Below, piece after piece: positions 4,888 to 40,080 of a stretch of DNA of 64,000 bases. Under the pieces are notes generated by a model that had not been told where the DNA came from, ran no database searches, and saw only the letters and a program-made list of their open reading frames with translations. Positions within the stretch are counted from its first letter, which is position 1; every line of letters starts with the position of its first letter. Origin of the DNA: an uncultured Sphingomonadaceae bacterium (GTDB taxonomy: Bacteria; Pseudomonadota; Alphaproteobacteria; Sphingomonadales; Sphingomonadaceae); contig CANLQE010000002.1 of NCBI GenBank assembly GCA_947493215.1, forward strand, positions 124,001 to 188,000, written 5' to 3'. The position numbers and the translations under genes are program-made.

Positions 4888-7482
4888 TCAGAACCTGAAG
4901 CCGACCTCCACGGAAATCTGACGACCACGTGTGAGAGTGACCGTTTGGTCATCACCAGGGCCGATGCCGGGAAAGCTGGTAGGTGCGCCAACAGGACCGT
5001 TCAGAAATGGCCGCGGACCAGCGGATGTTATGAACTGCTCGTCGGTCAAATTCGTACCGACCAACGACAATTTCCATTTCCCGTCCGGATCTCCAATGGA
5101 GATTGCACCATCAAGTGTAATGAAATCATCCTGCACGATGTCGGCTGCAGTAGATTGGCCAGTGAAGTATGAACCACTATAAGCCACATTACCGCTCAGA
5201 CCGAGCTCAAAACTGTTACCAACTGGGATGAACCAGTCTGCGGCAATATTTCCGGAGAATTCAGGAGCACGAGGCGCTGCCCTGCCATCAAAATCTGTAC
5301 CATCTGTACCAATGAACGTATCGGTAAATTCAGAGTCCAGATATGCCAATGCACCTGAGAGACGCAATCCCTCAACTGGTGTCCGCCACGCCCAATCGAC
5401 ATCCAAGCCCTTTGTTGTTAGTTCGCCAGCGTTAAAGGTGTTAAATTGAATGGCAACGGCATTAAAAAGCTGAACCTGTAAATCATCATAGACGTAATAG
5501 AAGGCAGTAGCATTCACCGTAACCGCACGGTCCGAAAATTGCGACTTAATGCCAATTTCACCGCCTATTGCCGTTTCAGAATCAAAGATAAGACCAGCCG
5601 TGGCATCTGCATCAAAAGTATTGCCTGTCGCCGGATTAATAGCGAGGTTACCGATACCTCCAAGGCCTGCCCCTGGAAGCGCACTATTATCAATACCACC
5701 GGATTTAAACCCAGTCTTAAAGGCACCAAACACATTGATGTCGTCCGTAACATTGTAGGTTAAAGATACTTCGGGCGAGAAGTTACTGTCGCTAAATTTA
5801 ATCGGATTGGAAACAAAGCCGCTGCCGACAAAAAGGGCGCCCCCTGCGATGCCGGTGAGAACAGGACTAATGTATGGGATCTGGATCGTGTTTGACTTTT
5901 GTTCATCCGTCCAACGCGCGCCTGCTGTTAAATGCAATCTGTCCGATATATCGAAGTCAAAACTGCCAAATATCGAGAAGGCTTCGGTATCTGTCTCATG
6001 TTGCCGATGATAATCGAACGTATTGCCGGTACCAAATGGATCCGGTCCAACAGTCAGAACAATATTAAGCGCTTGTTCCGAAGAGTTAAATTCAATTTCA
6101 CGCGTTTCGTAAAAAGCGCCCACTTGGAAATTAAATGGACCATCAAAATCTGACGCCACGCGAAGCTCTTGCGTAAATTGGCGTGTTTGATTGTCCGCCA
6201 GGTTACCTCCAACACCCAATGGCGTTGCCGCCGTATTAGGGAAGTCGGGGTTTGTCGCAAGGAAATTTTGCAAGAATGGCGCTGCAGCCGGGCTAGCAAA
6301 CTGGGCTGGTCCGACACCAACAAAACTAAAGACGTCGCGATCCAGCGACTTAAAATCAAGATAGCCAGTCGTCGAACTCAAGGTGAGAGAATCAGAAATA
6401 TCGACGTCAAATTTCAACCGGCCGAACCAGATATTCGTTATACCAAAGGCGGCGCCATTTCTGGCTGCAAACTCCTCGGCACCTCTGTTTTGGGAAGGCG
6501 CTTGACCGAACACGCCTTGAATGGGCGTGGCATCAACTTGCGGAAATAAGCTGTCACCGATGTTACAGTCGGCATTATTTGCTATTGCGGTAACTCCACC
6601 AACGATTACTGGATCGGCAACGCCATTGGGACCACAATCTTGATCCCTCAAAAGATTGGAACCATCATTGGTGTTACGGGTATAGCTTATTTTGAGATTC
6701 GCATCAAAAATATCAGTTGGTTCCCAATCCAACGTCAAACGGCTCACAAAATTGGTCAATCCGCGTGGATTTACTGTAGCAGGTGTTCCTGGTTGGACCT
6801 TATTAAACTCATCTACATCATTATATTGCGCCGCCAGACGTATACCTAATGTATCTGATAAAGGTCCGGAGATATATCCACCAATTGTGTATCCTTCCTC
6901 CTCAAATTCATAGGAGGCTTTGCCGCCAATTTCCCAATCAGGCGTAGGATCAGCCGAGCGGATAGAAATTACCCCGGCCGTCGAACTTTTACCAAAAAAG
7001 AGTGATTGCGGGCCTTTCAAAATATCGATTTGCTCAGCGTCAAAAAACCCTGCCTGCACTAAGCGCGAGGTACTAACTTGCACCCCGTCAATATCAAAAG
7101 CTACTGCGGAGTCGAATGCAGCTGAAATAGCCGAAGATCCAACACCGCGGAGATTAACCGAGCCGCCTGCACCAGAACCGCCAACTTGAATGACCAACGA
7201 GGGCACCCGGCTGGTCACATCTGCAATCTCATCAATTTGATATCGGTCAAGTGTTTCACCGCCAATGGCCGTAACGGTAACCGGAACTTCTTGAAGAGAC
7301 TCCGTGTTTTTACGCGCGATGACAGTAATGATATTTTCGTCATCCGCATCTGCCGCCGTATCTTGTGCATAAGCTGGCGCTGCAAAGCCAACAAAGGCAA
7401 TGCTCGCAGCAGAGCTCAATAAAAACCCGCGCATGGTCTTTGTTGCAAAAATACTATTGTTGCGTTTTGATTGTGTAGTCAT
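4888..7482 (-). CDS. TonB-dependent receptor (receptor 1)
   Basis: Outer-membrane receptor of 864 residues. Start ATG at 7482 has GGGAGAG upstream; earlier in-frame ATGs lack one. Order: signal peptide ending AAPAYAQ, a short TonB-box-like segment (ENIITVIARK), plug domain with NLRGVG and ILKGPQSLFFG, then a 22-strand-type barrel ending VEVGFRF with terminal Phe. Receptors of this class import large or hydrophobic substrates using TonB energy. Reads visibly AT-richer than the adjacent enzyme genes. It is divergent from an SDR at 7755, with a candidate operator between them. No TTGTCCGGACAA site is present, unlike receptors 2 and 3. Substrate presumed to be that of block 2. Confidence 0.93.
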   Translation of the reverse strand: MTTQSKRNNSIFATKTMRGFLLSSAASIAFVGFAAPAYAQDTAADADDENIITVIARKNTESLQEVPVTVTAIGGETLDRYQIDEIADVTSRVPSLVIQVGGSGAGGSVNLRGVGSSAISAAFDSAVAFDIDGVQVSTSRLVQAGFFDAEQIDILKGPQSLFFGKSSTAGVISIRSADPTPDWEIGGKASYEFEEEGYTIGGYISGPLSDTLGIRLAAQYNDVDEFNKVQPGTPATVNPRGLTNFVSRLTLDWEPTDIFDANLKISYTRNTNDGSNLLRDQDCGPNGVADPVIVGGVTAIANNADCNIGDSLFPQVDATPIQGVFGQAPSQNRGAEEFAARNGAAFGITNIWFGRLKFDVDISDSLTLSSTTGYLDFKSLDRDVFSFVGVGPAQFASPAAAPFLQNFLATNPDFPNTAATPLGVGGNLADNQTRQFTQELRVASDFDGPFNFQVGAFYETREIEFNSSEQALNIVLTVGPDPFGTGNTFDYHRQHETDTEAFSIFGSFDFDISDRLHLTAGARWTDEQKSNTIQIPYISPVLTGIAGGALFVGSGFVSNPIKFSDSNFSPEVSLTYNVTDDINVFGAFKTGFKSGGIDNSALPGAGLGGIGNLAINPATGNTFDADATAGLIFDSETAIGGEIGIKSQFSDRAVTVNATAFYYVYDDLQVQLFNAVAIQFNTFNAGELTTKGLDVDWAWRTPVEGLRLSGALAYLDSEFTDTFIGTDGTDFDGRAAPRAPEFSGNIAADWFIPVGNSFELGLSGNVAYSGSYFTGQSTAADIVQDDFITLDGAISIGDPDGKWKLSLVGTNLTDEQFITSAGPRPFLNGPVGAPTSFPGIGPGDDQTVTLTRGRQISVEVGFRF

Positions 7483-29998: not shown

Positions 29999-30010
29999 TT
30001 GTCCGGACAA
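29999..30010. promoter_or_regulatory. Operator TTGTCCGGACAA, copy 1
   Basis: Perfect 12-bp palindrome 21 bp upstream of the exported-protein gene at 30032, followed by AT-rich AATATT. First of nine related sites. Confidence 0.85.
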
Positions 30011-30031
30011 ATATTGCAAAGGACCGACCCG

Positions 30032-30838
30032 ATGTTTCTCACCAGTCTTTCTGCCTTGGCACTCGCCACCGGATCACCGAGCGCTGTAACGCTGGATCAG
30101 CAGTTACCCGGCATTTATACCAATGAAGAGCAGGCCTATTTTGAAAAAGATGCGGGCCGGACCCCGCCGCCCTGGATTGCGCTAAGCATTGAGGAGAAGG
30201 ACGGTGATCTGGTGATCACTCGCACAGATGCGTTCGGCAAGCCGGTTGCATCTCCGCAGAAAGGCACAACCGCCACCGGCGCAGAACGCGACAGTTTGAC
30301 CGTTGGTAATTGTACCCGCTATTTTGATCGTAACGATGCAGGCTGGACTTACAGCGCAGTGCAAAACAGAATGCTTTGCAAGCAAGATTATCAAATTACC
30401 AGCGTCAACGCGGACGGATTGAAACTTCGTTTTTCCGATGGCACGGAAACCCAATTGAAACGTGCCCGGCCCGTCGAATGCTGGGCTGCTGCTAAAAAGG
30501 TGGAACCCAAAGCTGATGGCAGCCCTGACTGGCTGTTCGCCCAAAAACTGAACCTACATGATCAGGGCGGACGGGTCATGGTGGGTGGCGGGGATAGCGG
30601 TGCCGAGCCGCTAATCCTGCGTATGCGCGCGGTACACTGGCCCAAGCCAAGCACAAACCGGCCCAGCATGGTGCTCTATGTCCACAAGCCCGACAATCCT
30701 GATCGCGCCGTCAGCTATAGCTGGGCGGATATCGATGCCAGCCGCGTGGGCCTCAACCTGCGCTGGATGCAAGCAAGCTGCACGATCAAGGGCGCAGAGC
30801 GTTCTTCCGATGTAACAAGCCAAAATTTTCGCGGCTGA
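30032..30838 (+). CDS. Exported protein of unknown function
   Basis: 268 residues, no family recognised. It starts with a signal-peptide-like stretch (MFLTSLSALALATGSPSA) and the rest is hydrophilic, with several Trp, Tyr and Cys residues (GNCTRYFD, MLCKQDY, VECWAAA, ASCTIKG) that could form disulfides in the periplasm. ATG at 30032 has AAAGGA at 9 bp spacing; the longer frame starts inside the operator. It faces the next gene tail to tail with no gap. The operator copy directly upstream places it in the TTGTCCGGACAA regulon. Confidence 0.75.
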   Translation: MFLTSLSALALATGSPSAVTLDQQLPGIYTNEEQAYFEKDAGRTPPPWIALSIEEKDGDLVITRTDAFGKPVASPQKGTTATGAERDSLTVGNCTRYFDRNDAGWTYSAVQNRMLCKQDYQITSVNADGLKLRFSDGTETQLKRARPVECWAAAKKVEPKADGSPDWLFAQKLNLHDQGGRVMVGGGDSGAEPLILRMRAVHWPKPSTNRPSMVLYVHKPDNPDRAVSYSWADIDASRVGLNLRWMQASCTIKGAERSSDVTSQNFRG

Positions 30839-31600
30839 TTATTTTGCAGGCGGCGTGAAAAGAGCATCATCTATCGCTGCATTCACTTTGGTCTCTGTCC
30901 AGAATACCTCATTGGATTTGCGCCCGTCATAATAAAGCGTGACATGTCGCGCCTGCAACCATCGCGGGTTTTCAAGGGTGACGAAGTCATCATAGACCCG
31001 CAAATGCCAACCCTTGGGCGTGCGAAAACCCATGGTCCGGATAGCATGGCTTTGCTGATCAATGCCGAAGAGCGTTTTGCCGCCTTTGGGATCGGTTAGC
31101 TCAACCATGTACAGGCCATGGCTACCGACATCATCATCTGCCAAACGGGTCGCGGCAAAACCTGGCTTGTCAGCTTGACGGATGATACCAAAACCAAAAT
31201 TGCTCGCCCAGAATTTATCGGCTTCCGCTTTCGGCGTTATCCCGCGTTCGGTCCAGGTGGTCTCCCCATCATAACCGACTTCAAAAATCAGTTTTTCCGA
31301 ATTTTTCGCAATGATGCGAACCTTGCCATCCGCGCCGTGGGCAACCGTGCGGTCAGGATCAAATACCCGCCACATCCGGTAGTCGGTAGCAATCGTGCGG
31401 GGCTTATGATCTGCCGGTCCATAAAAAACGGCGCGTCCGGATAAGGCCAATGTTCGCGCATTGGCCCAGTCATCGCCGCCTGCCGCTTCTCGAGCCATGG
31501 CCAATATACTAGCGCCATCTGGTTCCGCTTCCGCAGCGAATAGCGGATGCGCTAACATTGTCAGCACGAACACTATTATTATCTGCCAATATCGAACCAT
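30839..31600 (-). CDS. Exported protein, LolA-like lipoprotein-sorting fold possible
   Basis: 253 residues with an N-terminal signal (IIIVFVLTMLAHPLFAAEA). The body has a repeating beta pattern (IIAKNSEKLIFEVGYDGETTWTE split over strands; LYMVELTDPKGGKTLFGIDQ; IRTMGFRTPKGW) that resembles outer-membrane-lipoprotein-sorting or related half-barrels binding hydrophobic ligands. No specific domain is recognised with certainty. ATG at 31600. Operator copy 2 lies 20 bp upstream and is shared with the divergent flavin oxidase gene, so both are probably co-regulated. Hydrophobic substrate binding in the periplasm is only a suggestion. Confidence 0.72.
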   Translation of the reverse strand: MVRYWQIIIVFVLTMLAHPLFAAEAEPDGASILAMAREAAGGDDWANARTLALSGRAVFYGPADHKPRTIATDYRMWRVFDPDRTVAHGADGKVRIIAKNSEKLIFEVGYDGETTWTERGITPKAEADKFWASNFGFGIIRQADKPGFAATRLADDDVGSHGLYMVELTDPKGGKTLFGIDQQSHAIRTMGFRTPKGWHLRVYDDFVTLENPRWLQARHVTLYYDGRKSNEVFWTETKVNAAIDDALFTPPAK

Positions 31601-31674: not shown

Positions 31675-33084
31675 ATGAACACCAAGGCTTCTATAATCAG
31701 CAGGCGCGCCTTTGTCGGCGGGATGAGTGCATCGCTAATCGCCTGCGCTGCGCCGCGAAAGACATGGAGCAAGACCACGGCTGATGTGATTGTCATCGGC
31801 GCTGGTCTGGCGGGACTGCATGCAGCGAGCCTAATTGACAATGCGGGCTACAAGACAATCCTGTTGGAAGGCACGGGTCACACCGGCGGGCGTTTGCACA
31901 CGCTGGACGATTTGCCCGGCAAGCCTGATGCTGGTGGCATCCAGATTGGGGCGGGTTACAAACGCTTTCATGCCATAGCCGATCGTTTGAATGTGGAACG
32001 TTATGTTCCACCTCCATCTGCGCGCGGTTCCCTCTATCATATCGATGGCCATTCCCTGACCGCGCAGCAATGGGCAGATGCGCCGCAAAACAAGCTGTCC
32101 GCACAAGAAAAATCGGTACTACCGGATCGCCTGTTTTTCTCTTATCTCAAAGACCTGCCGAAATTTGAAAATATCGCCGACTGGATGCAACCGCAGGGCA
32201 GCGCCATCGATATCGCGCTCAGCCAATATTTGCGCGACCAAGGCGCATCCAAAGAAGCGCTGCGACTGATGAATGCCAATCTCAATGGCAACAGTATCGA
32301 CCAGCAATCGGCATTGCATATGGCCCGCACATTGGCGATTTTTCGCGCAGGCGGAAGCCCTACTCGCTACGTCCGTGGCGGTTCGCAGCGCATGACCGAT
32401 GCCATGGCGGGATCGTTGCGCAGTGAAATCTTCCTGAACAGTCCGGTTGCAGCAATTGAAGACGAGGGCGATGGTGTAGAGATCAGCCTGACCGATGGCC
32501 GCAAATATGGCGCGCGCCATGTCATTTGCACAGCCCCTTTTGCCGCGATGCAGTCCATGGCCATAGAAGCGGATTTGCCATTTGGGTTGCGGAACATCAT
32601 CGCGGCGCTGCCCTATACCAAAGCCAGTTTCGCCTATCTCGAAGCCAGCGAGGCGTTCTGGAAAGATGATGGCTTGCCAGAGACGATCTGGTCTGATGAC
32701 CCCATGTTGGGCAGAATGTTTGTGCTTGGCGACGATCCGGCAATGGTGAAAATCTGGCTCAATGGTCCAAGCGCGGATTTAGTGGATCAGATGGATGACC
32801 AGACAGCCGGCGCGGCGATCATAAACAAGATTGAAAGCGCTCGCCCATCGGCCAAAGGAAAGCTCAAATTTCTTAGGACGTTCAGCTGGCAGAAAAATCC
32901 TTTCGCAAGGGGCGTATATCATCATATCGGCGCTGGCCAAGGTGCCGCGTTGGCAGCAGCAACACAGCACCGCGGCACGCGCCTGCATTTTGCCGGAGAG
33001 CATCTCGCGCAGCAAAGTTCTGGCGTCGAAGGCGCGCTGGAAAGCGGGCAACGCACTGCCGAATATGTGCTGCAAAAACTGTGA
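31675..33084 (+). CDS. Flavin-dependent amine oxidase family protein, Tat lipoprotein-like signal
   Basis: 469 residues. Arg10-Arg11 in a SRRAFVGG twin-arginine context and LIAC with Cys24 as a lipobox suggest export folded and lipid anchoring. FAD site VIVIGAGLAG (res ~38-47), then EGTGHTGGRL, and a C-terminal FAD motif LHFAGEHLAQQSSGVEGALESG. These features mark the flavin monoamine oxidase/tryptophan monooxygenase/phytoene desaturase superfamily; the reaction (amine or C-C oxidation) is open. It forms a pair with the hydrolase 28 bp downstream and is controlled by operator copy 2. Confidence 0.88.
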   Translation: MNTKASIISRRAFVGGMSASLIACAAPRKTWSKTTADVIVIGAGLAGLHAASLIDNAGYKTILLEGTGHTGGRLHTLDDLPGKPDAGGIQIGAGYKRFHAIADRLNVERYVPPPSARGSLYHIDGHSLTAQQWADAPQNKLSAQEKSVLPDRLFFSYLKDLPKFENIADWMQPQGSAIDIALSQYLRDQGASKEALRLMNANLNGNSIDQQSALHMARTLAIFRAGGSPTRYVRGGSQRMTDAMAGSLRSEIFLNSPVAAIEDEGDGVEISLTDGRKYGARHVICTAPFAAMQSMAIEADLPFGLRNIIAALPYTKASFAYLEASEAFWKDDGLPETIWSDDPMLGRMFVLGDDPAMVKIWLNGPSADLVDQMDDQTAGAAIINKIESARPSAKGKLKFLRTFSWQKNPFARGVYHHIGAGQGAALAAATQHRGTRLHFAGEHLAQQSSGVEGALESGQRTAEYVLQKL

Positions 33085-33112: not shown

Positions 33113-33970
33113 ATGACAGACGGGACTCAAGGAAAATGGAACCGTCGACAGATAATGACAGCTGCGGCAATATCGTGCCTTGCCACTTCGACCATTGCTT
33201 GCACCAGTTTGAGCGCGCGGCCTATAATCTCTCGACCGGCGATGGCCAAAACCTTCGTGCTGGTCCACGGCGCGTGGCACGGCGGCTGGTGCTGGCGCGA
33301 TGTCCGGTCGCAACTGGAAGCGCAAGGACACCGCGTGTTCACGCCCACCCTCACCGGACTTGCCGAACGCGCGCATCTATTGTCAGCGGATATCGGGCTG
33401 GATGCGCATATCACGGACATCACGTCGCTGATCGACTATTATGATCTCAGCAACATTGTGCTGGTTGGCCATAGCTACGGCGGCATGGTGATTACCGGTG
33501 TTGCAGATGCAATGAAGAACCGGATTGACGAGATTTTCTATCTCGATGCCGCCTTACCGGACCATGGTGAGACAATGATCACGCAGGGGCCGGAGCGCAG
33601 TCCGGCAGCTATCGAACAGACCCGCACAGCATTGGAAGCATTCGCACCAGATGGCATTGGCATGGCGGCCTTCCCGCCGGATTTTCTGGGCATTCCGAAA
33701 GGCCATCCTGGCTATGACTGGGTCGCCCGGAAATTAACACCGCATCCACTCAAAACCTGGCTGGACCCCATTCAGCTCACTAATGGCGGACCACAAGGAA
33801 TGACGCGCCACTATATCCACTGCACCGAGCCGGCCTTGCCCAATAGTAGCTTTCCCTATCATGCTGAGCAGGTGCAAGCAGACCCGAGCTGGACCTATCA
33901 TGCGCTCGCCACCGGCCATGACGCGATGGTGACGGCACCCAACGAGCTGGTCGCGATATTGACAGGGTAA
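33113..33970 (+). CDS. Alpha/beta hydrolase, exported (EstC/salicylate-esterase-like)
   Basis: 285 residues. NRRQIMTAAA near the N-terminus resembles a Tat signal, with a weak lipobox-like TIAC at Cys30. Hydrolase motifs: oxyanion segment VHGAWHGGWCW (51-61), nucleophile Ser121 in GHSYGG, and catalytic His269 in ATGHDAM. The class hydrolyses esters or cleaves C-C bonds. Start at ATG 33113; the longer frame into the previous gene is not credible. A decayed second copy of this gene is at ~36793-36942, next to receptor 3. Both copies converge with a TonB receptor ~110 bp away. Confidence 0.88.
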   Translation: MTDGTQGKWNRRQIMTAAAISCLATSTIACTSLSARPIISRPAMAKTFVLVHGAWHGGWCWRDVRSQLEAQGHRVFTPTLTGLAERAHLLSADIGLDAHITDITSLIDYYDLSNIVLVGHSYGGMVITGVADAMKNRIDEIFYLDAALPDHGETMITQGPERSPAAIEQTRTALEAFAPDGIGMAAFPPDFLGIPKGHPGYDWVARKLTPHPLKTWLDPIQLTNGGPQGMTRHYIHCTEPALPNSSFPYHAEQVQADPSWTYHALATGHDAMVTAPNELVAILTG

Positions 33971-34024
33971 CTCAAGCGCCACATCCAACGCCGCAATATA
34001 GTCTATCTGTCCCAGCAAATATCG

Positions 34025-34053
34025 TAAAAAAGGCGCCTCCTGAGAGACGCCTT
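34025..34053 (-). terminator. Rho-independent terminator after TonB receptor 2
   Basis: On the minus strand AAGGCGTCTC-TCAG-GAGGCGCCTT forms a 10-bp stem (one wobble) followed by a U run (A's at 34025-34030 on the plus strand), 24 bp past the receptor stop. It also lies between converging genes. Confidence 0.8.
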
Positions 34054-34076
34054 CCTTATCTGTGAAAATTGCCAAT

Positions 34077-36566
34077 CTACTGGAACGTATATTTCAACTT
34101 CACGCCAAATTGCCGTTTGTCGCGCAGGCCAACACGGTCACCTTCGCGGCCAAAGTTGAAGAACCCGCCGGGAAGTGCACGCGTGCCAAAACTCGTATCT
34201 GCAAAGTTAAAGGCGGTTGTCGGTGCATCTTCGTTCAATAAATTGGTCACGAAAAATTCGATGCCCGCATTTTCGCCCCTTAGACCTAGGCGAAGATTGA
34301 CATCGGTTGCTTCCTCTACCTCGGCGACATTGGCGTTGCTGTCAAAATAGTCACCCGTAAAATAGAGGTCGCTACGCAAATACCAGCTGTCGAAAATGTC
34401 TCCAAAACCGTTGAAATCGTCCTCATAGGTAGCGCCCAGTGATAGTGTCAAAGGCGGAAAGCGCGGTGCCCGTTGTCCAGAAATATCTGCATCGGGGCCA
34501 AAGATATCGCCAAAATCTCCGGTTCCGCCATCAGCAGGGAAGGACGAAATCTTTGCGTCAATATAGGCAAAGGACCCCTGCATCGATAGATTTTCACTGA
34601 CGTTCACTGTCGCATCAAACTCGACGCCGTAAATATTGGTGCTCGCCCCGTTCGACGTAAAGTTGACCGTCCGAACCGGGTTGGGGGCCCCCGGATCAGT
34701 GTCGGTTATCACCTCAATGGAGCTGAAAATTTCGTCACTCCGTTTCATGTAAAAAGCAGCCAGATTGAATCCGAAAATACCGCTAGGATGCTGCTGCTTC
34801 CAGCCGAATTCATAATTGGTCAGCTGCTCCTCACCAAAAAGCACATTTGCATCAGGCGCTAAAGCGGCCAATTCGGCAAGTTGCAGTGCATCCAGTCCAG
34901 CGATTTGCGGATTGAAGCCGCCTGGCAGATTGCCTTCGCTGTAAGTTGCATAGAATGTGGTGTAATTTGACGGTTGATATCGCAATGTCCCGCGCGGCAG
35001 GAAGCTGTTAATTTCACCGGGCGAGATTGGTGTTGCCAGACCGTCATTAACCTCGGGATTGCTGAACTCGTCTTTCTGGAAACGACCCTCGAGCGTAATC
35101 GATATCTGGTCTGTAATTTGATAGTCTAGCGAACCAAAAAAGCCCAGAGTTTCAGCGCCCGATACAAATGGATCGGACCTAAAAATGTCGCCAAAGAAAA
35201 TCGGAGGGCCAAAGAAACTTGCCGTTCCACCCAGCTCATCAATGTCGATTTTAACATAGCTCGCACCAGCTGAAATATTAAGGCTATCATCAAATAGAGA
35301 TGCAGACAGGCGCCCTTCGACCGTCAAATCTTCCGTTTCACGTGCGGTAAAGCTGGTGAAACTATTATCGGGGGTTGAATCGAAATCCGTGTAAAAACCG
35401 AATCTCTCCTTATTATACCCGGCCAGAAAACTAAACTCGATATTGTCGGTCAGATCCGCAGAGCCAACGGCGCTCAGACGCAATGAATCGAGGTTCAGAC
35501 CAAAATCGTCCACCGTGGTCGGACTATATTTGAAATCAAATATGGCATCACTGGGATCGGAACGTCCATCATTCAAAAAGCCGAGAAATGCCTGAAGGTT
35601 TTCCGGAGCTGTGTTCAGTCCGATGCGATCAGCAGGAGGTTCCGTAATCCGTCCGCGGAAGACCGATTCACCGCGACCACCGCCCGGTGAAGGCACGACC
35701 GAATCCGTTTGATCGGCAATGCCATTGACGAACTGAAAACCCCCGAAATTATGCTGACTGGTACCAAAGTACAAAACAGAAGCGGCTGGGCCATCATCAA
35801 TTTCCTGATAGGACCCTCTCAATTTGAGGCGGATGCCATCGCTTGGTTCGATCAGCAACGTGCCGGCGATCGACCATTGTGATTCGTCACCCAGGCGTTG
35901 GCCAGGAACAGCAACATTGTCAAAATGGCCGTCTTTCGTATCATAATTACCGCTCAAGCGAAAAGACAGACCGTCTGTAATCGGTCCTTCTACCCCTGCC
36001 GCGAAATTATATTCATCCCGGGTGGCCGCCGTGACGCTCAGATCAACCTGGAACTCGTCGCTGGGGTCCTTGGTCACATAGTTGATCGCACCAGCAAAAG
36101 TGTTGCGGCCAAACAAAGCCGATTGCGGACCTTTGATAATTTCCACGCGTTGCAATTCATTGATACCGATGGTCTGCGCACCGCCGCTCAGGAATACGCC
36201 ATCCAGAAATACCGTTGCTGTTTGTTGCAGTCGGTTGCCGCTTATCAACGTGATGCCGCGAAACCGCGGCGTTGAGTTAATGCGCGCGGTGCCGTTGGTA
36301 TTATCACCGAACGGTTCGACAAAAGCGCCCGGAGCCGCCTTGGTGATTTCGGTAATGTCCGAGAAACCTGCCCCTTGAAGCTCCGTTTCACCGATTACGG
36401 TAACCGCCAAGGGCGCGTCCAGCAGAGTCTCTTCTTTCTTGCGCGCGGTGACAATGATGACATTGGAGTTATCATCAGCGCCTTCTTCAGCCGTATCCTG
36501 TGCATAAACGGGCACACTGCCCAAAATGGTGGCCGACAACAGCGCGGCCTTCAACATCATCTTCAT
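34077..36566 (-). CDS. TonB-dependent receptor (receptor 2)
   Basis: 829 residues: signal peptide ending GSVPVYAQ, TonB-box-like NVIIVTARKKEE, plug with FRGITLISGN, IIKGPQSALFGRNTFAGAINYVT, and a long beta barrel ending GVKLKYTFQ. ATG at 36566 is preceded by GGGAG and lies just downstream of a TATAAT at 36587-36582 and two operator copies. It imports the inducing substrate or a relative of it, by inference. Paralogue of receptor 3; the two sit in a duplicated unit with an alpha/beta hydrolase. Clearly different from receptor 1, which lacks the operator. Confidence 0.93.
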   Translation of the reverse strand: MKMMLKAALLSATILGSVPVYAQDTAEEGADDNSNVIIVTARKKEETLLDAPLAVTVIGETELQGAGFSDITEITKAAPGAFVEPFGDNTNGTARINSTPRFRGITLISGNRLQQTATVFLDGVFLSGGAQTIGINELQRVEIIKGPQSALFGRNTFAGAINYVTKDPSDEFQVDLSVTAATRDEYNFAAGVEGPITDGLSFRLSGNYDTKDGHFDNVAVPGQRLGDESQWSIAGTLLIEPSDGIRLKLRGSYQEIDDGPAASVLYFGTSQHNFGGFQFVNGIADQTDSVVPSPGGGRGESVFRGRITEPPADRIGLNTAPENLQAFLGFLNDGRSDPSDAIFDFKYSPTTVDDFGLNLDSLRLSAVGSADLTDNIEFSFLAGYNKERFGFYTDFDSTPDNSFTSFTARETEDLTVEGRLSASLFDDSLNISAGASYVKIDIDELGGTASFFGPPIFFGDIFRSDPFVSGAETLGFFGSLDYQITDQISITLEGRFQKDEFSNPEVNDGLATPISPGEINSFLPRGTLRYQPSNYTTFYATYSEGNLPGGFNPQIAGLDALQLAELAALAPDANVLFGEEQLTNYEFGWKQQHPSGIFGFNLAAFYMKRSDEIFSSIEVITDTDPGAPNPVRTVNFTSNGASTNIYGVEFDATVNVSENLSMQGSFAYIDAKISSFPADGGTGDFGDIFGPDADISGQRAPRFPPLTLSLGATYEDDFNGFGDIFDSWYLRSDLYFTGDYFDSNANVAEVEEATDVNLRLGLRGENAGIEFFVTNLLNEDAPTTAFNFADTSFGTRALPGGFFNFGREGDRVGLRDKRQFGVKLKYTFQ

Positions 36567-36589
36567 TACCCGATCTCCCTGATTATAAT

Positions 36590-36601
36590 TTGTCTGGACA
36601 A
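36590..36601. promoter_or_regulatory. Operator TTGTCTGGACAA (variant), copy 3, with adjacent -10 element
   Basis: 11 of 12 bases match the consensus; the core is still GT-N4-AC. On the minus strand it is followed after two bases by TATAAT (36587-36582), a textbook -10 box, so a bound protein would block RNA polymerase. Upstream of receptor 2. Confidence 0.85.
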
Positions 36602-36620
36602 ATCTCATTAATCCGGAAAT

Positions 36621-36632
36621 TTGTCCAGACAA
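36621..36632. promoter_or_regulatory. Operator TTGTCCAGACAA (variant), copy 4
   Basis: Complement of the copy 3 sequence, with flanks AAT/ATT extending the dyad. Its centre is 31 bp from copy 3, about three helical turns, so two dimers would sit on one face. Confidence 0.85.
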
Positions 36633-36792
36633 ATTTTCAGGTTCACCAAAATCGGATCAGGATGTGTAGTATTTATGCGACATTTGCACTTGTCAGACGC
36701 AAAAACCCGCCGCCAGATTAACCGAAAGCGCACGATCCAGAAATATGTTCTTTGATCCAATTTCGTAAACTATTGCTTATTCCTCACGATAG
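36633..36792. other. Gene-free stretch upstream of the hydrolase remnant
   Basis: Together with the pseudogene this makes a 421-bp gap between receptors 2 and 3. This part shows no credible gene, repeat or terminator; it may hold more decayed hydrolase sequence that is no longer readable. Confidence 0.5.
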
Positions 36793-36942
36793 GAAGGTAC
36801 ACCAGCATTTCTCGGCATCCCCAATGATGATACCGAGCAGCTGGAAGCAGATGACAGCTGAATATATCATAAGCTCCCCAATGGTCATGACGCTATGGCG
36901 ACCGCGCTGGATAAAATTATCGCCCTGTTGCTTGTTACCTGA
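36793..36942 (+). pseudogene. Decayed alpha/beta hydrolase fragment (copy of 33113-33970)
   Basis: In one frame the region reads FLGIPNDDT, then EQLEADDS-stop-IYHKLPNGHDAM and ends ALDKIIALLLVT before TGA at 36940. The intact hydrolase has FLGIPKGHP and, ~90 residues later, EQVQADPSWTYHALATGHDAM and a similar C-terminus. The nonsense codon TGA (36859-36861) replaces the Trp TGG, and ~80 residues between the two segments are deleted. An earlier in-frame stop at ~36790 closes the 5' side. The fragment sits 111 bp from the stop of receptor 3, as the intact gene sits 106 bp from that of receptor 2. Confidence 0.78.
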
Positions 36943-36969
36943 AAGCCGCACTTCAATTAACTGTCAGGC

Positions 36970-36997
36970 AAAAAAGAAGGCCGCAAAAGCAGCCTTC
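36970..36997 (-). terminator. Rho-independent terminator after TonB receptor 3
   Basis: On the minus strand GAAGGCTGC-TTTT-GCGGCCTTC (9-bp stem, one wobble) is followed by six U's (A's at 36970-36975). It is 56 bp past the receptor stop at 37054 and equivalent in place to the terminator at 34025. Confidence 0.83.
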
Positions 36998-37053
36998 TCT
37001 CAATTTAACTGACTTGTGATCAAGCCATGAGGATCAAACTGATGCAAATCCTA

Positions 37054-39483
37054 TTAGAAGGATCCGCTTAAAGTCACGCCGAACTGGCGTCTCTCAGGCG
37101 GAGTAATCGCAAAGGCTCGCTGCCGCACGCCATTGAGCGTGGGGGCAGAAAAATCAACATAACGCAAAATGCCGCGCGGTGTTTCATCTTGGAAAGCATT
37201 TTTTACCCAGAATCGGATGGAAAGATTATCCTTCCGAACGCCTGCAGAGAAATTGGCTTTAGTAGAATCTCCCGTTTCCGCTAGATTATGTATTTGGGCG
37301 AAGAAGGAAGACCGATAGATCAAGTCACCACGTGCGAAGATATCCCATCCACTATCGCCGAGTGGTAGATCAATCGCAGTGCTGAACGATGCCTGATGTT
37401 TGGATACCAAAGGAGGTGTCTTGCCAGAAACATCAGCGAACGTTGAACATGCAGTTGGTCCAGTCGTTAGAGTACCGTCACCAAGCGCCTGTCCAGCATC
37501 CAAAATAGTGGCAGGGTTTGCACAACCGCCCGTCGTCGGCAATGTTGCCCCAGGATTGTTGGGATCAGGAACGGTTCCAGTGCCTGTTGTCCCGCCCAAT
37601 AACACCGCCTGATCCGTACTGACTCCATTCGTGACTTCGGCATCGATGTAAGCATATGTCCCTGATAGGGTAAGAAAATCGGTAACACGCCATGATGCGT
37701 CTAGTTCCAAACCATAAATTTCAGTATCGCCGATATTGTCGCTGAATGAGTCCACTCCGCCCGCACCGGTAGTAAATGTGCTTGTAAGAACTTGGTCACT
37801 ATAGTCGATGAAGAAACCAGCAACGTTTACTCGCAGACCATCTAAGGGTTCTGACTTGATACCCACCTCATAGTTTTTTAGTCGCTCTTCGCCAAAAGTG
37901 GTGATTGGCGCATCAGTTGAGTTGAACCCGCCGGGAGAATTGCCCTCAGCATATTTAGCATAAACCAACAGATTATCATTTGCCTGATAGTCGACAGTTA
38001 TGCGTGGTAAAACCGACTTAAATGTCGCGTTACGGACGGCTCCGTCTCCATTAATAATCCTGTCCGGATTTACGGCACCTGCAAATAAGTCACCGAGCCG
38101 GTAGGAGGCTCCAGGTCGCGTTCCTATTTCTTCTCGGGCAATCCGCAGTTCACCGCCAATTGTCAGGCGATCGGTTATATCAAATTCAACAGAACCAAAT
38201 GCAGCTAGGTTGGTTGTGACGTCAGTTTCAGAAATTGAATCAAACCCGAACTCTGTTTGTTTTCGCCCATAATCGGTGCCATTGGTCTTATCGTCAAAAA
38301 AGAACCCGCCAATTTCAACACGGATCGCCTTGTCTTGCGGTGAGGCAAAACGCAACTCTGCTGATATTGCGGTACGCTCGATCTCAGAATCGGTGTTGAA
38401 CGGCGATACTCCAAAAGCACAATCCGGGATAAAGTTAGCACAAACAAACGGCGAGCTGATGAAAAGAGCGGTCTGATCGTTGAACGTTTGATCAGTGCCC
38501 GTCCGTTCGGTAATGTCCGTGTATCCAAACAAGGCGGTTGCCGTGTAACCGGAATCACCGAGCTCGGCAGTTGCAGTTGCAATGAAGCGATTGGCCTTCC
38601 GGTTTAATCCTGGGTCAATCAACTCATCCGTGTTCAGGCCAATGGGTTCCCGTAACTCTACTTCACCTTGGAAATACCCTCTGCTGCCGGCGGTAAAGAC
38701 ATTGTTGAAACTGGAATCCTGAAGTCCGATTGCGTAATGATCATCATCATCTTCCGTCCGAAGATAAATGACACTGGCTTCAAAACCATCGCTTTGATAA
38801 TTTAGCCCCGCCGAAATTGTGAGAGTTTCCTGACCCAGACTATTACCAGTAACCGAATTCGTGTAATCGCCGCCGAAGCTGTTATATTTGCCAGAAACAA
38901 AGCCACTTAACCCATCGGCAATTGGTCCTGCAATGCGGCCAAAGACTTCATAGTCATCGTGGGTCGCGGCTGTTAGCTCAAAATCGACCGTTAGCTCGTC
39001 TGATGGCTGCTTGGAAACATAGTTCACAGCGCCCGAGAGGGTACCGCGTCCAAAAACAGCGCTTTGCGGACCTTTGATAACTTCTACCCGGCGATAATTT
39101 TCCAAATCAAGCGCGGTTGATGCGCCAACAAACGGCACCCCATCAATGAAGAATCCGACCTTGCCCTCCGAAATCAAAATATTCGAAGCACCCCGAATAA
39201 CCGGACGATCAGCGTCGCGACCAAATGCAGATTGCAATTGAAAGCCGGGCGTAAAATCTGAAATCTGTTCCAATCCAGAGATATTCGCATCATCAATCAG
39301 TTCTTCCCCAAAGACACTAACCGCGACGGGCACTGTTTGCAGACTCTCTTCTCTCTTACGAGCGGTAACAACAATATCGTTTCCGAAACCTGTTACGCTA
39401 TCTTGCCCACTGTCCTGCGCGAATGCATATGTTGGTGTCGCTGCTGTAGCCGCCAACAACAAACTCTTAAGCAGTGCTTTCAT
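37054..39483 (-). CDS. TonB-dependent receptor (receptor 3)
   Basis: 809 residues: signal peptide ending ATPTYAFAQD, TonB-box-like GNDIVVTARKREES, plug with VIRGASNILISEG and VIKGPQSAVFGRGTLSGAVNYVS, and a beta barrel ending GVTLSGSF. Same layout as receptor 2 (GKYNSFGGDYTNS and NYEVGIKSEP barrel segments), so a paralogue by duplication. ATG at 39483. Operator copies 5 and 6 lie 22 and 69 bp upstream. Reads AT-richer than the flanking enzyme genes. Its presence with receptor 2 suggests two related ligands, or dosage gain. Confidence 0.93.
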   Translation of the reverse strand: MKALLKSLLLAATAATPTYAFAQDSGQDSVTGFGNDIVVTARKREESLQTVPVAVSVFGEELIDDANISGLEQISDFTPGFQLQSAFGRDADRPVIRGASNILISEGKVGFFIDGVPFVGASTALDLENYRRVEVIKGPQSAVFGRGTLSGAVNYVSKQPSDELTVDFELTAATHDDYEVFGRIAGPIADGLSGFVSGKYNSFGGDYTNSVTGNSLGQETLTISAGLNYQSDGFEASVIYLRTEDDDDHYAIGLQDSSFNNVFTAGSRGYFQGEVELREPIGLNTDELIDPGLNRKANRFIATATAELGDSGYTATALFGYTDITERTGTDQTFNDQTALFISSPFVCANFIPDCAFGVSPFNTDSEIERTAISAELRFASPQDKAIRVEIGGFFFDDKTNGTDYGRKQTEFGFDSISETDVTTNLAAFGSVEFDITDRLTIGGELRIAREEIGTRPGASYRLGDLFAGAVNPDRIINGDGAVRNATFKSVLPRITVDYQANDNLLVYAKYAEGNSPGGFNSTDAPITTFGEERLKNYEVGIKSEPLDGLRVNVAGFFIDYSDQVLTSTFTTGAGGVDSFSDNIGDTEIYGLELDASWRVTDFLTLSGTYAYIDAEVTNGVSTDQAVLLGGTTGTGTVPDPNNPGATLPTTGGCANPATILDAGQALGDGTLTTGPTACSTFADVSGKTPPLVSKHQASFSTAIDLPLGDSGWDIFARGDLIYRSSFFAQIHNLAETGDSTKANFSAGVRKDNLSIRFWVKNAFQDETPRGILRYVDFSAPTLNGVRQRAFAITPPERRQFGVTLSGSF

Positions 39484-39505
39484 TTTGATTTCTCCCTATT
39501 TTCTA

Positions 39506-39517
39506 TTGTCCGGACAA
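39506..39517. promoter_or_regulatory. Operator TTGTCCGGACAA, copy 5
   Basis: Perfect palindrome 22 bp upstream of receptor 3. On the minus strand it is followed at once by AT-rich ATAGAAAATAG, which could act as a -10 region, as at copy 3. Confidence 0.87.
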
Positions 39518-39552
39518 CCTCTCCAAATGTTGATTTCCACCACTTATCTAAT

Positions 39553-39564
39553 TTGTCCAGACAA
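39553..39564. promoter_or_regulatory. Operator TTGTCCAGACAA (variant), copy 6
   Basis: 11 of 12 bases match, with flanks AAT/ATT; 47 bp centre to centre from copy 5. Receptor 3 thus has paired sites like receptor 2 but with different spacing. Confidence 0.83.
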
Positions 39565-39746
39565 ATTTTAATCCTTCCTGTTTCGAAAACCTCTATTGTT
39601 ACATAAATGCAACTATGCTGATCTATGATCTCGACGGCGCCTATTAATCCCAAGATATTGGTGCTTCACGTGTAATTCGCGCAAAAAGATTGGCTCTTAG
39701 AAATTAGGGGTAAATAGCGGTTGCAATCATTTATCCTTCGCGTAAT

Positions 39747-39758
39747 TTGTCCGGACAA
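39747..39758. promoter_or_regulatory. Operator TTGTCCGGACAA, copy 7
   Basis: Perfect palindrome 19 bp upstream of the DUF1330 gene at 39778, which heads the plus-strand operon to 45710. Confidence 0.87.
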
Positions 39759-39777
39759 CTTTTAAAAGGACTCACCC

Positions 39778-40080
39778 ATGCCAGCGTATATGATCGTTAC
39801 TGCTAAAATTGCCGATCGCGATAAATTTATCTCAGGCTATGGCGCAGCTGCCGGGGCCCTCGTGGAGAAATTTGGCGGCCGCTATGTTTTACGCGGCCCC
39901 GGAGCAGAGCTACTGGAAGGTGATTTTGGCGATGGCGCATCGATGGTGATTTCCGAATGGCCCGATAAGGCAGCGGTACATAAATTCTGGAACAGCCCGG
40001 AATATCAGGAAGCCAAGAAATTGCGCGCTGACATCGCCGATTGTCAGGTTCTTGTTATAGAAAGCCCCAAAATCACATGA
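39778..40080 (+). CDS. DUF1330 family protein
   Basis: 100 residues of the DUF1330 dimeric alpha+beta barrel: AYMIVTAKIADRDKFISGY, FGGRYVLRGPG, FGDGASMVISEWPDKAA, FWNSPEYQEAKKLR. Function is not known for the family, but the ferredoxin-like barrel suits small-molecule binding or a cofactor-free reaction. ATG at 39778 with AAAAGGA at 8 bp. First gene of an operon of at least nine genes, directly behind operator copy 7. The next gene overlaps its stop (ATGA). Confidence 0.86.
   Translation: MPAYMIVTAKIADRDKFISGYGAAAGALVEKFGGRYVLRGPGAELLEGDFGDGASMVISEWPDKAAVHKFWNSPEYQEAKKLRADIADCQVLVIESPKIT

Follow-up and report, generated by a model that had tools for sequence, protein, structure and literature searches.

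A probable recombination scar between two TonB-dependent receptor genes of a Sphingomonadaceae bacterium

How does a broken hydrolase gene come to lie between two genes for TonB-dependent receptors? The question is raised by a stretch of 64,000 nucleotides from an uncultured Sphingomonadaceae bacterium (GCA_947493215.1, contig CANLQE010000002.1, positions 124,001 to 188,000; hereafter the window, located on contig C2 of a 3.69-Mb genome). There, an intact alpha/beta hydrolase gene faces a receptor gene of the opposite strand (R2), which is followed by a hydrolase fragment and by a second receptor gene (R3). An earlier note on this DNA had seen in this layout the tandem duplication of a hydrolase-receptor unit, one hydrolase of which had decayed. 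Our analysis suggests that the stretch is probably a recombination scar in a locus where receptors are exchanged. The elements described in the note are sound: hydrolase, R2 and R3 are open reading frames of the expected families (Pfam), both receptors carrying PF07715 and PF00593 (plug and barrel) above curated cut-off, the hydrolase-to-receptor distances are 106 and 111 bp, and each receptor is preceded by two operators (Table 1). It is the origin assigned to them that is not supported.

The gap between R2 and R3 holds two relics, in the order R2, piece of a third receptor, hydrolase 3' end, R3. The fragment is indeed a broken hydrolase, at the right place and in the right orientation beside R3. 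Its DNA alignment with the intact gene scores 40, a value reached by none of 1000 dinucleotide shuffles (mean 14, maximum 22), and tblastn on the own genome recovers it unprompted, with an in-frame TGA (E 3e-4). Codons 191-199 are followed by an in-frame gap of 52 codons and then by codons 252 to the end, while codons 1-190 are absent. With recognisable homology and disabling changes, it is an alpha/beta hydrolase pseudogene. The FLGIP motif, which the note had found preserved upstream, belongs to this relic. It abuts the receptor relic and could have been a chance match; this idea was dropped, since the best place for the 25-nt stretch is this codon in all nine hydrolases tried (9/9) and only 1 of 5000 shuffles equals its fit anywhere in the gene of the congener G322 (G numbers designate genomes and L numbers fetched loci). 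The hydrolase relic begins at about 36808 and not at 36793 as first proposed, and what lies to the left of 36809 is the relic of a receptor, which had been missed.

This receptor relic belongs to a type that we call R3'. Of its 34 residues, 28 are the same in G322, G317 and G323, and 20 in G243. Its DNA scores 57 against G322, the maximum of 300 mononucleotide shuffles being 19, and the match to the R3' of G322 has an E value of 4e-16 with the 414-nt gap alone as target and of 1.8e-10 in a search of 20 loci. Among other receptor types, R2' matches it at E 0.007, and R2 and R3 do not fall under 0.05. The hydrolase relic was compared with 12 hydrolases over a small number of sites (117 nt): 87 are identical in G322, 82 in G323 and G317, 80 in G320 and G321, 79 in the own intact gene and 71-78 in the rest. 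When the columns were resampled 2000 times, the best of G322, G323 and G317 surpassed the own gene 1923 times, and the own gene came out best 45 times. These comparisons indicate that the relic would be closer to hydrolases of other species than to its own intact copy, and both relics are nearest to the same three congeners. The intact gene has another profile. At 72 sites separating G317, G322 and G323 from G312, G320, G318 and G321, it resembles the latter at 39, the former at 20 and neither at 13; 12 of these 20 sites lie in the first 180 nt and 6 at 33833-33952. No second close hydrolase is present in the own genome, where the next match after the intact gene has an E value of 8e-6 and 25% identity.

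The order of the relics is informative. The hydrolase stands left of R3' in G322 and similar congeners, whereas in the window the R3' relic stands left of the hydrolase relic. Because the order is reversed, it implies that hydrolase sequence would once have been present on both sides of R3', or copied there; one hydrolase-R3' unit in its native order would not leave an R3' relic ahead of a hydrolase relic. Thus a second hydrolase segment in tandem, as the note proposed, may well have existed at some time; that it was part of one unit duplicated here into R2 and R3 is not supported. The joins also bear on this history. The region upstream of R2 tracks that of G320, where the R3' terminator sits upstream of R2, as far as AAAAACCCGCCGCCAGA, the left arm of this terminator, and R3' coding sequence comes next. 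At the second join, from R3' to hydrolase, about 3 nt (ATT) are common to both sides. The overlaps at the two joins are about 9 and 3 nt.

To see how these pieces are arranged elsewhere, 24 stretches from relatives were fetched and 21 compared (L042, L043 and L055 were omitted, L055 being contained in L097). The hydrolase is found at 55% identity or more in 15 of 32 genomes of the genus, the window's included, and AO (an FAD-dependent amine-oxidase-like gene), hydrolase, receptor and DUF1330 gene are together in 12 congeners. Six of these have one receptor and six have two, in six combinations: R2 with R3 (G312), R2' with R3 (G301), R2 with R3' (G320, G318, G153, G243), R2 alone (G321), R2' alone (G298) and R3' alone (G317, G322, G323, G319). 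On this evidence the locus is best described as a constant hydrolase followed by one or two opposite-strand TonB receptors, for which there are four deep types (R2, R2', R3 and R3'). When 40 hydrolase loci (each about 3.7 kb) were searched with 43 receptor queries, a convergent receptor was present no more than 600 bp away in 13; these 13 hydrolases are all at least 63% identical and the 27 others at most 59%. Each receptor is also found without the other or without the hydrolase. In G278, neither R2 nor R3 adjoins a hydrolase of this kind, G323 has an extra R2 elsewhere, and G313 has R3' and R2 with a carbon-nitrogen hydrolase gene where the hydrolase would be. In an uncultured Erythrobacter R3 stands alone, and a search of that genome, run without positive control, found no such hydrolase. 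Judged by this distribution, R2 and R3 occur independently of each other. As an observation apart, the carbon-nitrogen hydrolase gene occupies the hydrolase's place beside a receptor in G308 (L097 1819-2958) as well as in G313 (L095 4880-5983).

If R2 and R3 were the products of a tandem duplication in this lineage, followed by decay of the second hydrolase, the matching layout and spacing of the fragment would be accounted for. Such a duplication would also fit the kinship of the receptors within the genome, where each of R2 and R3 has the other as its best match (236 and 251 bits, the next receptors scoring 141 and 150) and the two are thus not less alike than random receptors; the set compared comprised 29 partial reading frames, clipped at locus ends, from the 30 loci available for 38 plug domains. 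In a tree of 40 rows, from which three rows duplicating R2, R3 and the receptor at 4888 were omitted, R2, R3, R2' and R3' form one clade (100/99) and R2 pairs weakly with R3 (81/59). Yet their branches measure 1.34 and 0.94 changes per site and the two proteins are about 30% identical, when the DNA of the fragment has kept 68-74% identity to intact hydrolase genes (its own genome's and that of G322). By these measures the split of R2 and R3 is ancient. A recent duplication would have the two units align over their length, and a direct-repeat search gives DNA stretches of at most 27 nt; none of the 12 congeners has a second hydrolase between its receptors; in G312, R3 and R2 are separated by 118 bp without hydrolase. 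A recent segmental duplication is not supported, as the units fail to align over their length and the copy is not nearest to its own-genome neighbour (79 against 87 of 117 nt). With, in addition, a relic of a third receptor sitting between R2 and R3, each receptor occurring elsewhere without the other, and R2 exchanged more recently than R3, we consider the duplication of the whole unit quite improbable.

The different timing of the two receptors was measured at four-fold sites whose first two bases are equal. Between the window and G312, R2 is 97% identical in amino acids; its 397 four-fold sites agree at 71%, those of 13 other genes at 45% (770 of 1730; Fisher 6e-22, with counts rebuilt from rounded percentages). 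Four-fold identity of R2 is 65-71% to G312, G320, G318 and G321 and 57% to G153 and G243. Because it is only 37-39% to the copies of G323, G313 and G278, codon bias is not likely to cause the high values. R3 behaves like the rest of the locus, with 92-93% amino acid identity and 40% of four-fold sites to G312 and G301. R2 was thus exchanged more recently than its neighbours, with the lineage of the window as either recipient or donor.

We suppose that the history began with a resident locus AO-hydrolase-R3'-DUF1330, of the kind found in G322, G323 and G317. By recombination through the hydrolase, this locus would have gained DNA to become AO-hydrolase-R3'-hydrolase-R3-DUF1330, and a G320-like hydrolase-R2 segment would have entered on the left. 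Deletions joined at short overlaps would have trimmed R3' to its 34 codons and the second hydrolase to about 45, which now lie between R2, with the intact hydrolase beyond it, and R3. We infer the number, order and direction of these events, as well as recombination through the hydrolase as their route. Besides the order and affinities of the relics, the R3' terminator arm upstream of R2, the recent exchange of R2 and the varied receptor content of the congeners, the right flank speaks for this history: from R3 to DUF1330 it aligns best with G322, G323 and G317, and like them the window lacks two hydrolase-type genes that are present there in 8 of the 12 congeners. The relics presumably code for nothing.

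Alternatively, a short tandem duplication, from hydrolase codon 191 to R3' codon 548, could have taken place in a hydrolase-R3' locus. The second hydrolase would then have been born truncated and never been a gene, and R2 and R3 would later have replaced most of the two R3' copies. This has the merit of producing both the order and the join in one step, since the new join of R3' codon 548 to hydrolase codon 191 is the observed one, with about 3 nt common to the sides. It requires, however, that R3 replaced the second R3' and R2 most of the first, and no intermediate exists in the loci examined; we regard it as a possible but rather unlikely course. In homology-facilitated illegitimate recombination, described in bacteria (PMC3240628), foreign DNA enters by one homologous end and its other end is joined without homology. 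Two such one-sided insertions could also have built the locus, R2 DNA pairing at the hydrolase and hydrolase-R3 DNA pairing at the receptor promoter and DUF1330, their other ends being joined at short overlaps. Both joins do have short overlaps, and the flanks differ in nearest relatives: the R3-to-DUF1330 flank aligns best with G322, G323 and G317 (39478-39800 is 73% identical to G323 over 328 nt, and matches G322 in two pieces at 82%). But short overlaps of this size (3 to 9 nt) carry little weight, and the donor needed, with this hydrolase beside R3, was not seen among the five R3 relatives found; we give this course, too, a minor chance. Finally, an assembly error fusing pieces of different strains has only the unusual mosaic in its favour; the relics carry stops and a deletion, the contig measures 364,849 bp and the genome has a listed completeness of 100% and contamination of 0.18%, which makes such an error very improbable.

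Several points weigh against the recombination scar as we reconstruct it. At 102 and about 135 nt, the relics are too short to do more than indicate their nearest relatives, and the hydrolase relic also shares 80 of 117 nt with G320 and G321. Chance could produce overlaps as short as those at the joins (3 to 9 nt), which are suggestive only. An intact hydrolase of this kind stands beside R3 in none of the five R3 relatives found. These were sought in the 32 genus genomes (E 1e-60), in 397 family genomes (E 1e-150), where G278 is the only match besides the own genome, and in the named genome collection (4 loci); plasmids gave no R3 match at E 1e-100. The order hydrolase-receptor-hydrolase-receptor is absent from all loci examined. 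Comparable relics were found beside receptors in none of 19 relatives' loci rescanned for short matches (L040 and L094 being left out), which makes the scar a single case; the rescan gave one further short hydrolase match, remote, in L096 (29% identity). The weak pairing of R2 with R3 and their mutual best matches are expected of a deep duplication as well, and the rise in R2 identity fits either direction of exchange, with the lineage of the window as donor included.

Table 1. Features of the hydrolase-receptor locus, in window positions
Feature	Positions	Strand	Evidence and details
AO, FAD-dependent amine-oxidase-like gene, left neighbour	31675-33084	+	Pfam PF01593
Intact alpha/beta hydrolase, constant gene of the locus	33113-33970	+	Pfam Abhydrolase_6
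Hairpin (putative terminator) between hydrolase and R2	34025-34058	strongest on minus	-21.6 kcal/mol, z -5.6
R2, TonB-dependent receptor, recently exchanged	34077-36566	-	Pfam
Two palindromic operators before R2	36590-36601, 36621-36632		each 1 mismatch from TTGTCCGGACAA
Junction 1, 17 nt identical to left arm of R3' terminator upstream of R2 in G320, running into R3' coding sequence	36701-36717		alignment
R3'-type TonB receptor relic, codons 548-581 (G322 fragment numbering)	36708-36809	-	one in-frame stop
Hydrolase relic, piece 1, codons 191-199 (FLGIP)	36808-36834	+	
Hydrolase relic, piece 2, codons 252 to end	36835-36942	+	in-frame TGA
Hairpin (putative terminator) between hydrolase relic and R3	36972-37001	strongest on minus	-20.8 kcal/mol, z -5.7
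R3, TonB-dependent receptor, locus-baseline divergence	37054-39483	-	Pfam
Two operators before R3	39506-39517, 39553-39564		exact; 1 mismatch
DUF1330 gene, right neighbour	39778-40080	+	exact operator at 39747

Other parts of the locus also vary. AO is 76-81% identical to the version of G298, G317, G322 and G323 and 61-63% to that of G312, G301, G320, G318, G321, G153 and G243. Its neighbours at 29999-31600 are 77-85% alike through the 12 congeners where present, G319 being apart. Because AO splits into two versions while these neighbours do not, it seems to have been exchanged separately, with two versions in the genus. Two further genes, for a second alpha/beta hydrolase and for a carbon-nitrogen hydrolase, stand between receptor and DUF1330 in 8 of the 12 congeners (for example L052 5678-7793). 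Both are missing in the window and in G317, G322 and G323, and G319 has the second alpha/beta hydrolase only.

The regulatory signals noticed earlier are present at both receptors. The two hairpins fold better than all of 200 shuffles (200/200) and are strongest on the minus strand, that is, as predicted terminators of the receptors, although a scan with a strict terminator pattern misses both. The operator scan gives 13 sites in the window with at most two mismatches, against 2.5 expected. The exact palindrome TTGTCCGGACAA occurs at nine places in the genome, eight of them inside 51 kb of C2 (C2:153999-204560) overlapping the window, and this operator-rich stretch looks like one regulon. The palindrome is also present in 31 of the 131 loci fetched by then, including most of the relatives' loci of the region. 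Within the window, the palindrome lies upstream of several genes between 29999 and 62458. A regulator was sought among a few of the genes near operators and none was tied to the operator; a LysR-type gene is present in L044.

The solved structure best matching the intact hydrolase is 6tj2, followed by 1xkl and 5y51. It resembles in its core sequence alpha/beta hydrolases such as SABP2, hydroxynitrile lyase and pyrethroid hydrolase, from which it differs by an export-like N-terminal stretch. This stretch, seen by eye at 33113-33240, comprises a twin arginine and a hydrophobic segment, because of which the hydrolase may be exported. From position and family membership, the locus would presumably be an operator-controlled module for uptake and hydrolysis, in which R2 and R3 import related compounds and a single hydrolase acts on these.

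The kinds of event proposed here are already known. A literature search gave no paper that we could recognise as dealing with this locus. In one known process, a gene is duplicated in tandem and one copy decays into a pseudogene, which would leave, next to a related receptor, a second and partial copy of the gene marked by a stop and a deletion; the case here differs in that the partial copy is nearer to the gene of another species and that the receptors are not recent copies. Siderophore receptor genes are exchanged at a fixed locus, as for fpvA of Pseudomonas. Our locus shares with it the constant site and the interchangeable, deeply diverged TonB receptors. It differs by the catabolic-type cluster, by the hydrolase as constant neighbour and by the broken remains of a former arrangement that have been kept. 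Entry of foreign DNA through homology at one end, with the other end joined without it, would be shared with the recombination described in PMC3240628, the events here being read from the scar.

More tentatively, the hydrolase could serve as a standing recombination handle, at which a donor pairs and adds a hydrolase-receptor segment in tandem before the old one is lost. The locus would then cycle between one- and two-receptor states, and the window would have been caught mid-cycle, with the old receptor and the old hydrolase still legible; we hold this as a conjecture that is possible rather than likely. The locus also carries a caution: where a broken copy of a gene lies next to a paralogue, tandem duplication and decay are not necessarily its origin. 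For these bacteria it would offer a legible scar of a change of import at a catabolic-type uptake locus, where congeners appear to trade receptors at a fixed site while the adjoining enzyme stays.

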